In this document: piece by piece, positions 48,101 to 51,100 of the stretch
Numbering within the stretch: position 1 is the stretch's first letter
Layout: each line of letters starts with the position of its first letter
Source: Glandiceps talaboti
Taxonomy: Eukaryota > Hemichordata > Enteropneusta > Spengelidae
Direction of reading: 5' to 3'
Assembly (NCBI RefSeq): GCF_964340395.1
Contig: NC_135564.1
Coordinates: 1,472,501-1,536,500, forward strand
DNA: 64,000 nt
Program-made: the position numbers and the translations under genes
Notes under the pieces: generated by a model
Told to the model about the DNA's origin: nothing
Databases searched by the model: none
What the model saw: the letters and a program-made list of their open reading frames with translations, nothing else

Positions 48101-51100
48101 GTTTTGACATGGAGGGTGGGAGGGGAGGGGATGGGATAGGTGGGCCCAGGGAGTGATGGGCATCATACTTACTTGAGACTGAGTGGGGTCTTCCATTGCT
48201 AGTTGAGTTCAATGCTGGGGTGGATGTTTTCATTGGGAGGGTGGCGGGGGATGGGGTTTGAGGTAGCGGTGAGGTGAGAGGCTTTATACTTACTTGAGAC
48301 TGAGTGGGGTCTTCCATTGCTAGTTGAGTTCAATGCTGGTGTGGAAGTCTTGACTGGGAGGGTGGAGGGGGAGGTAGCTGTGAGATGAGAGGCTTTATAC
48401 TTACTTGAGACTGAGTGGGGTCTTCCATTGCTAGTTGAGTTCAATGCTGGTGTGGAAGTCTTGACTGGGAGGGTGGAGGGGGAGGTAGCTGTGAGATGAG
48501 AGGCTTTATACTTACTTGAGACTGAGTGGGGTCTTCCATTGCTAGTTGAGTTCAATGCTGGGGTGGAAGTCTTGACTGGGAGGGTGGAGGGGGAGGTAGC
48601 TGTGAGGTGAGAGGCTTTATACTTACTTGAGACTGAGTGGGGTCTTCCATTGCTAGTTGAGTTCAATGCTGGGGTGGAAGTCTTGACTGGGAGGGTGGAG
48701 GGGGAGGTAGCTGTGAGGTGAGAGGCTTCACACTTACTTGAGACTGAGTGGGGTCTTCCATTGCTAGTTGAGTTCAATGCTGGGGTGGAAGTCTTGACTG
48801 GTAGGGTGGAGGGGGAGGTAGCTGTGAGGTGAGAGGCTTCATACTTACTTGAGACTGAGTGGGGTCTTCCATTGCTAGTTGAGTTCAATGCTGGTGTGGA
48901 AGTCTTGACTGGGAGGGTGGAGGGGGAGGTAGCTGTGAGATGAGAGGCTTTATACTTACTTGAGACTGAGTGGGGTCTTCCATTGCTAGTTGAGTTCAAT
49001 GCTGGGGTGGAAGTCTTGACTGGGAGGGTGGAGGGGGAGGTAGCTGTGAGGTGAGAGGCTTTATACTTACTTGAGACTGAGTGGGGTCTTCCATTGCTAG
49101 TTGAGTTCAATGCTGGGGTGGAAGTCTTGACTGGGAGGGTGGAGGGGGAGGTAGCTGTGAGGTGAGAGGCTTCACACTTACTTGAGACTGAGTGGGGTCT
49201 TCCATTGCTAGTTGAGTTCAATGCTGGGGTGGAAGTCTTGACTGGTAGGGTGGAGGGGGAGGTAGCTGTGAGGTGAGAGGCTTCATACTTACTTGACACT
49301 GAGTGGGGTCTTCCATTGCTAGTTGAGTTCAATGCTGGGGTGGAAGTCTTGACTGGTAGGGTGGAGGGGGAGGTAGCTGTGAGGTGAGAGGCTTCATACT
49401 TACTTGAGACTGAGTGGGGTCTTCCATTGCTAGTTGAGTTCAATGCTGGGGTGGAAGTCTTGACTGGTAGGGTGGAGGGGGAGGTAGCTGTGAGGTGAGA
49501 GGCTTCATACTTACTTGAGACTGAGTGGGGTCTTCCATTGCTAGTTGAGTTCAATGCTGGTGTGGAAGTCTTGACTGGTAGACTTGGTGTCATACTCAGA
49601 CTTGATGTTGTACTTTCCAAACTCTGATCAAAACTCTGGTCTCTACTAGAATCATGATTTAATGTAGTTGGCGTCTTCTCATCAGAACTGGCCGCTGTGA
49701 AACAATAAAACAGACAAGTGAAAATTGTGCTACCCACTTATCATAAAGCAAATTTGCTTAGATCACTTTTTTATAGCTTGGTGTAATAGCCAGTTTACGA
49801 TCCACACTGAGCATGCTCAGATGCAAAGGACTGTGGGAATATTTGTAGTTATGGCAACACCTAATCTTGAGTGATTGCAGATTGCCCTCCTGCAAAGTGA
49901 CCAAGACTAAAGATTATTTTTTATATTTACAATAGTAAATGATTCAAGTTTATCAACTGAATGATACTACATTTCCCATAATACACCATTCAAGATAAAT
50001 GGGTTTACATTCCCAATACACATTTTTTCTTCTGCTAAGCAGAAATAGACAAATGATGCACAATTAATACAGGTTTCTAACTCTTCCCACCTCAGGTATG
50101 AGTCAGAACATCACGATGGCTATGGTTATGATGTCTATGTAAAGGGTTCTTCATTGTTGGTAATTTGTATTCATACACTTCCAGACTTTTAACCTGTTCA
50201 TACAGTGTTTATTTCTGTGTACAAACAGCATGCAGACTTGTGTGTTTATTGAAAGTATACTAGTTAGAAGTTCTGTGACTTTAAATTTTTAAACAGACAG
50301 TGGATTAGTATCATGTGGTGTGTACATCACTTGAACCTTGATAGGAACACAATAACAAACTTTTCAGCTCACAGTGTGATACAGTAAGTTAAAGAGGTAA
50401 TGATCAATACTGTTAGACTCTCTCACAGCCTCAGGAGCATCGCTAGCAGAAAGCGACTGTTTTGTATGTTATAATATTTACCACATACTTGTACTCTATC
50501 TAATATCCTTGTACTGCGCACCCTCATTGACTACACAGGGCTAGCCATTCCTTGATATGTTCTTGTGACCCACCATGTTATTGCGACGCCCCCGATAACA
50601 CGGCAGGTCGCAATAACACATCACCGAATGGTTAGTCATACAGAGTCGATGAGGGCGCACAGTACAAGGATATTAGATAGAATACAAGTATGTGGTAGAT
50701 ATTAGTACATACAAGATAGCCGTTTTTTGCTAGTGACGTTCCTAAGGCTGTGAGAGAGTCTATCAATACTCTATGGTTTAGTATATCACAGGGTGTGAAC
50801 ATCGCTTGACTCTTTAGATACACAAAAGACAAGTTCTTTTCAGATCCCAGTATGTAATAGAGTGTAATTGTCAATACCGTATGGCTTAGTAGATAATGGG
50901 TTGACTACAACTTTTACATTTTATTCTTGTTTGGAACACAATGACCACAACCTGTTGTGAAGTACGTAAAAGACTTCATTTTCACTGCAGTATGGTTTAG
51001 TATCATGGGGTGTGTACCCACTTCACTTCCTTTAGATACACAATAACACTTTTTTCCCAGATCACATGGAGATTCCGAGAATACAACACTTGATTCTAAT

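Follow-up and report, generated by a model that had tools for sequence, protein, structure and literature searches.

Tandem repeats lying across exon-intron boundaries have been described in amphioxus as 'mirages', in which homogenised centres are combined with excluded edge copies and instability of length (PMC3087553). Mirages are reported for the genes Adh3, the globins BflGb6 and BflGb9, troponin C and PGBD5 (PMC3087553, PMC3902484). Data on Adh3 and reverse-transcription PCR of globins suggest that regular splicing is undisturbed by them (PMC3087553), and an in-frame extra exon that annotators had drawn from the 108-bp repeat of PGBD5 was set aside by the authors, as it had no transcript support (PMC3902484). 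In this work we describe an array of 111-bp units that spans the donor end of an exon (exon E) of a TANC gene in the hemichordate Glandiceps talaboti, within a stretch of 64,000 nucleotides (assembly GCF_964340395.1, contig NC_135564.1, positions 1,472,501 to 1,536,500 of the forward strand), which is referred to as the window and in whose coordinates all positions are given. The array is probably a minisatellite of the mirage type, mostly intronic, that lies beside the true donor and is tolerated because slips to a later donor would stay in frame. The arrangement is one already known in kind from amphioxus.

Comparison with described systems

The array has the same anatomy as the amphioxus mirages, and every feature of these that can be examined in a sequence was found in it: each unit crosses the exon-intron boundary, joining 60 nt of exon E to 51 nt of intron; the copies bear splice signals; and a homogenised cluster of near-identical units (1–12) is followed by excluded edge copies (13–15) with insertions and lost signals. 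Unlike the amphioxus mirages, it sits in a hemichordate, holds 12 near-identical units and would stay in frame whether its segments are retained or spliced; and whereas regular splicing has been reported for the former, the TANC array is known from the sequence of one haplotype. A second point of comparison is intron gain by tandem duplication (PMC3443670), in which a donor and a new acceptor are likewise placed around a short segment, as the donor of each TANC unit and the CCAG of the next, 51 nt apart, form a newly created pair. However, the duplicated segments in that system lie inside an exon with AGGT and the new introns are spliced, whereas the TANC duplication spans an existing exon end and its 51-nt segments are putative introns. 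In length the 51-nt segment falls in the same class as the human ultra-short introns of 43–65 nt (PMC4463651), many of which are G-rich with weak signals, whereas the TANC segment is C-rich and its role as an intron is a hypothetical one.

An earlier reading of the same DNA, hereafter the original prediction, knew of no described case with this arrangement. The amphioxus mirages correct that statement as far as the arrangement is concerned; it stands in the narrower sense that we found, in the accessible literature on known mirages, no description of an array whose combinations all keep the frame. Nor was a hemichordate mirage found in the open-access library searched, whose silence is no proof of absence.

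Structure of the array and its host gene

The boundary and its copies comprise the following features.

49515..49694, minus strand: exon E (number five in the model; 180 nt), which closes at donor 1 and has both ends in phase 1; supported by its splice signals and reading frame, and colinear with the Ptychodera and Saccoglossus proteins
48294..49574, minus strand: homogenised array of 12 exon-like 60-nt and 11 intron-like 51-nt pieces, with 12 donors and 11 internal acceptors (script and Tandem Repeats Finder, TRF)
48173..48293, minus strand: copy 13, with an identical donor at 48173, a 10-nt insertion and the acceptor lost (sequence comparison)
47900..48172, minus strand: two decayed copies, 14 and 15, with AT in place of GT behind copy 14; the lower limit is approximate (sequence comparison)

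Exon E begins at 49694 behind a good acceptor, and its own end is the first exon-like piece of the array, which continues along the minus strand in 12 units, all with a length of exactly 111 bp; in each, 60 nt from the end of the exon are followed by 51 nt from the head of the intron. Exon-like parts of 60 nt are present in 12/12 units, and the intron-like parts measure 51 nt in 11/11 cases, the 12th unit being without an intact one; TRF reports the repeat at 48260-49578 with a period of 111, 11.9 copies, 98% matches and 0% indels. The donor TCAA/GTAAGT occurs 12 times in identical form at an exact spacing of 111 bp (script; last exon base 49515, 49404 and so on to 48294), and CCAG/TCAAG was found 12 times, the first (49574) inside exon E and the other 11 constituting the internal acceptors, whose CAG arises where the exon's own CTACCAGTC meets the C-rich intron stretch. 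Within the 51-nt segment, CTCAC motifs place branch-like adenines at +19 and +24 (counted by eye). In these respects the original prediction was accurate: it had described 12 minus-strand units of 111 bp with an invariant CAA/GTAAGT donor (script and TRF agree), 12 donors and 11 internal acceptors (as the script finds), a stop-free 51-nt donor-to-acceptor segment and a 60-nt remainder, both multiples of three (11/11, 12/12), CTCAC branch-like motifs about 19 nt from the donor, and ends in phase 1 like those of the neighbouring exons. The six complete modelled exons (B, C, D, E, F and H) are indeed in phase 1 at both ends, with a departure at exon I, further downstream, which enters in phase 1 and leaves in phase 2.

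The 12 units are not the whole array, as the same prediction had missed copy 13 and the two decayed copies beyond it. Donor 13 sits 121 bp past donor 12, and copy 13 retains 57/60 exon-like bases; when it is counted, identical donors total 13 and internal CAG acceptors 11. Units 1–12 differ from one another at 6 positions, 2 of them exon-like (both synonymous) and 4 intron-like, and a run of 393 bp (three units and the next exon-like piece) recurs with the same order of unit types at an offset of 444 bp, as unequal exchange would produce. The repeat itself is far beyond chance.

The host gene was modelled as 1575 residues, comprising 8 spliced exons and 9 later open pieces. Pfam places a TANC1-like ATPase lid and a winged-helix domain in this model, with ankyrin repeats in another exon, and when the ATPase exon was compared with the sequences in the PDB, none matched at E <= 0.001. 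Comparison with known proteins yielded 2388 at E <= 1e-20 among 7978 scored; within the best 120 of these 2388 the model is 66% identical over the whole query to a Ptychodera flava TANC2-like protein, 62% identical to a Saccoglossus kowalevskii protein, and 54-58% identical over 70-76% of the query to proteins of starfish and Branchiostoma (54-57% for Branchiostoma), such that the closest proteins are hemichordate and lie outside the cephalochordates, the reported range of mirages. This comparison rejects amphioxus as the host and points most probably to an enteropneust hemichordate other than Ptychodera and Saccoglossus. Exon E has the following modelled neighbours.

43150..43257, minus strand: exon F, which follows the array on its downstream side (108 nt, phase 1; splice signals; junction colinear with relatives)
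52839..53303, minus strand: exon D, which precedes exon E (465 nt, phase 1; splice signals and frame)

In the Ptychodera and Saccoglossus proteins, both database protein models, the aligned exon E region is a single unit, joined as donor 1 would be to the next exon; the Ptychodera segment across the exon E/F join reads ...STSTGRPHSVS/TTNPNPIEDLPMFAEQ. The single unit and the donor-1 junction shared by both relatives mark donor 1 as the ancestral end of the exon, and the array expanded into the TANC intron later. The original proposal of a satellite grown from exon and intron sequence is borne out: an exon tail and an intron head are what is repeated, and each relative has one unit. The intron from donor 1 to exon F measures 6257 nt, and the smallest of the 7 modelled TANC introns 646 nt.

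Frame neutrality and chance

Exons ending at donors 1–12 would measure 180–1401 nt, each of the 12 a multiple of three and stop-free, and when one internal join is combined with one terminal donor 286/286 combinations are in frame and stop-free. This neutrality follows from two lengths divisible by three together with one stop-free 51-nt stretch. The claim that the exon is 'always in frame' therefore holds for donors 1–12 and for all 286 combinations, that is, for the homogenised part; it fails at donor 13, where the exon would be out of frame and contain a TAG. The presence of an identical donor out of frame behind a stop indicates that growth of the array did not respect the frame.

When the 42-nt body of the C-rich intron-like stretch was shuffled with the donor and CAG kept (n=20,000), 76% of the shuffles were stop-free, as compared with 33% of random 54-nt minus-strand stretches of the window (20,000 draws). 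Of six other intron starts in the gene, one, that behind exon H, lacks a stop in its first 51 nt when read in phase 1; the count leaves out exon I, whose donor is in phase 2. By arithmetic, both segments would be multiples of three in 1 of 9 cases if independent, and the frame-neutral property amounts to a coincidence of about 4-8%, noticed post hoc. Differences among units number 2/60 in the exon-like part and 4/51 in the intron-like part (Fisher p = 0.41), sites too few for selection to be read from them.

Donor choice and competing explanations

The history that we favour for this mirage-type minisatellite starts from a duplication, evident in the repeat, by which the final 60 nt of exon E together with the first 51 nt of its intron were copied head to tail on the intron side of the ancestral exon end. 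Growth would have followed by unequal exchange, as is suggested by the near-identical units, the decayed edge on the intron side and the run repeated 444 bp later. Exon definition would pair the exon E acceptor at 49694 with the first donor at 49515 to give the 180-nt exon, the remaining units would leave with the 6.3-kb intron, and splicing of the 51-nt segments would be rare or absent. The frame-neutral geometry would then reflect chance and tolerance; slips to donors 2–12, being in frame, would not be strongly selected against, and leaky use of these later donors is possible. In favour of this account are the single unit and donor-1 junction of the two relatives, the out-of-frame donor 13, the frame-breaking duplication at exon H, the presence of other long arrays in the window, the anatomy shared with the amphioxus mirages, the short donor-to-branch distance of 19-24 nt, and the length of 646 nt of the smallest modelled intron.

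Several observations weigh against this account. All 12 donors are identical and the local sequence does not mark out the first; donor 1 is the predicted main donor. Exons ending at later donors would join exon F identically, and the relatives show the ancestral form, not present use. The coincidence of about 4-8% is a mild hint of constraint, as is the synonymy of both exon-like variable sites, although these are too few, and human introns of 43-56 nt are known to be spliced (PMC4463651).

An explanation that we hold to be unlikely, but which draws on the same donor identity, is that several of donors 1–12 are joined to exon F through leaky or regulated choice, giving isoforms with 0–11 extra 37-residue repeats in which the 51-nt segments are retained. 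All 12 terminal choices are in frame and stop-free, and on a human-type weight matrix the array donor scores 5.7, inside the gene's own range of 1.8-7.5. However, the relatives show the one-unit form only, the amphioxus mirages reportedly leave regular splicing undisturbed, and the identical donor 13 would yield a stop. Nor was a protein fragment carrying the array found in two protein searches, which are weak because they admit only proteins of 0.55-1.75x the query length: a query of the spliced exons D-H (339 amino acids) had no match at E <= 1e-5 among 7994 candidates scored, and a query in the array frame had none at 1e-3 among 7989; in both, the length window excludes full-length TANC proteins and low-complexity words may have crowded the candidates. 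The suggestion that the array is a combinatorial source of length variants found no support beyond the frame arithmetic, the relatives having one unit and the donor-1 junction.

A live splice ladder, in which identical donors and acceptors compete and alternative terminal donors, together with non-adjacent joins (at least 162 nt), yield isoforms whose N-terminal TANC segment varies in steps of 37 and 20 residues, would go further still, and we judge it improbable. If internal splicing occurs, its likeliest form is a join that skips at least one unit, which would remove an intron of ordinary size (162-1161 nt) and which the original prediction overlooked. Adjacent 51-nt joins are unlikely, since their branch-like adenines lie 19-24 nt from the donor, and at distances under about 50 nt the donor and branch-site complexes are reported to clash sterically (PMC7969005), yet human introns of 43-56 nt do splice; in the same source, branch points 25-41 nt from the donor enforce mutually exclusive exons.

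True splice cassettes, with the internal acceptors used by 51-nt introns or, more plausibly, by skip-joins of at least 162 nt to give steps of 20 residues, are in our estimate very improbable. The 11 internal acceptors do have C/T tracts and score 4.5-5.7, as compared with 6.2 for the exon E acceptor (on a crude human-type scale), and skip-joins of ordinary length would be in frame in 286/286 combinations; against this stand the donor-to-branch spacing of 19-24 nt in adjacent joins, the origin of the acceptor CAG as a by-product of the repeat junction, and the loss of the acceptor in copy 13. That the copy number or the whole array is an assembly error is hardly credible: near-identical tandem units are prone to misassembly and a series of unit types is repeated 444 bp further on, but variants follow one another in order along the units, the edge is decayed, the assembly also resolved other long arrays in the window, and the duplicated boundary does not hinge on exact copy number.

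Other boundary duplications and neighbouring features

Copies were also found near two further donors of the same gene.

39820..40083, minus strand: exon H, the P-loop exon, 264 nt (splice signals and frame)
39537..39850, minus strand: second boundary-spanning duplication, two copies of 157 bp that cover the exon H donor (at 39820, with its repeat at 39663), not frame-neutral (TRF, blastn and translation)
52779..52820, minus strand: degenerate copy of the sequence around the exon D donor, displaced by 46 bp past the real boundary; it matches at 83% over 42 nt and no longer has the donor (blastn)

The duplicate at exon H lies 157 bp away, is 97% identical over 71 nt and has the same donor context in both copies; an exon extended to the second donor would be 157 nt longer, out of frame and interrupted by a stop. 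The gene thus tolerates an identical extra donor that cannot be used productively, and the Ptychodera and Saccoglossus proteins have no insertion at this position. The tandem at the exon D donor region, of 46-bp period and degenerate, spans 52779-52866 (minus strand). Exon D itself contains an 18-bp repeat of about 5 copies (53010-53100, minus strand) coding for GVNTAL-like residues, which the aligned Ptychodera and Saccoglossus proteins are without.

Altogether, neighbouring copies were detected by blast against the window at 3/16 modelled boundaries, namely donors E, D and H (3/8 donors, 0/8 acceptors). Of random points in the window, 561/3000 have a tandem copy across them, or 138/2553 when the five largest arrays are set aside. 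A concentration of repeats at exon ends was not shown: all boundaries together match the overall rate, at 19% each, and in so repeat-rich a stretch repeats at boundaries call for no particular cause. Relative to the lower rate outside the arrays, donors by themselves would look enriched, a split made post hoc; enrichment at donors is possible.

The window is unusually rich in long arrays. A 42-bp array of 38 copies at 7310-8926 is open in 539/539 codons of one minus-strand frame, on which ground a long open frame (512 amino acids) was rejected as evidence of coding. Further long minisatellites, with 38-49 copies each, lie at 31240-33134, 44483-46019 and 61006-62645 (periods 49, 31 and 42 bp). 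Exons encoding WD40 repeats are located at 10794-12741 (minus strand), downstream of TANC and on the same strand; in human, WDSUB1 adjoins TANC1, and the position of the WD40 exons may reflect conserved gene order. An open frame of 604 amino acids, stop to stop, at 15337-17151 (plus strand) has no Pfam match at E <= 0.001.

Implications

The frame-neutral splice geometry of a satellite is in itself no sign of function, a warning underlined by the next copy of the same array and by the exon H array, neither of which is frame-neutral. Were the splice ladder true, differences in copy number would alter it between individuals. More broadly, this work extends boundary-spanning mirage repeats from lancelets to a hemichordate genome, with two cases and a degenerate third in one gene. 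With 13 identical donors and 11 acceptors at a fixed spacing, the TANC array is in effect a natural construct, in which exon definition and donor competition would be readable from RNA.
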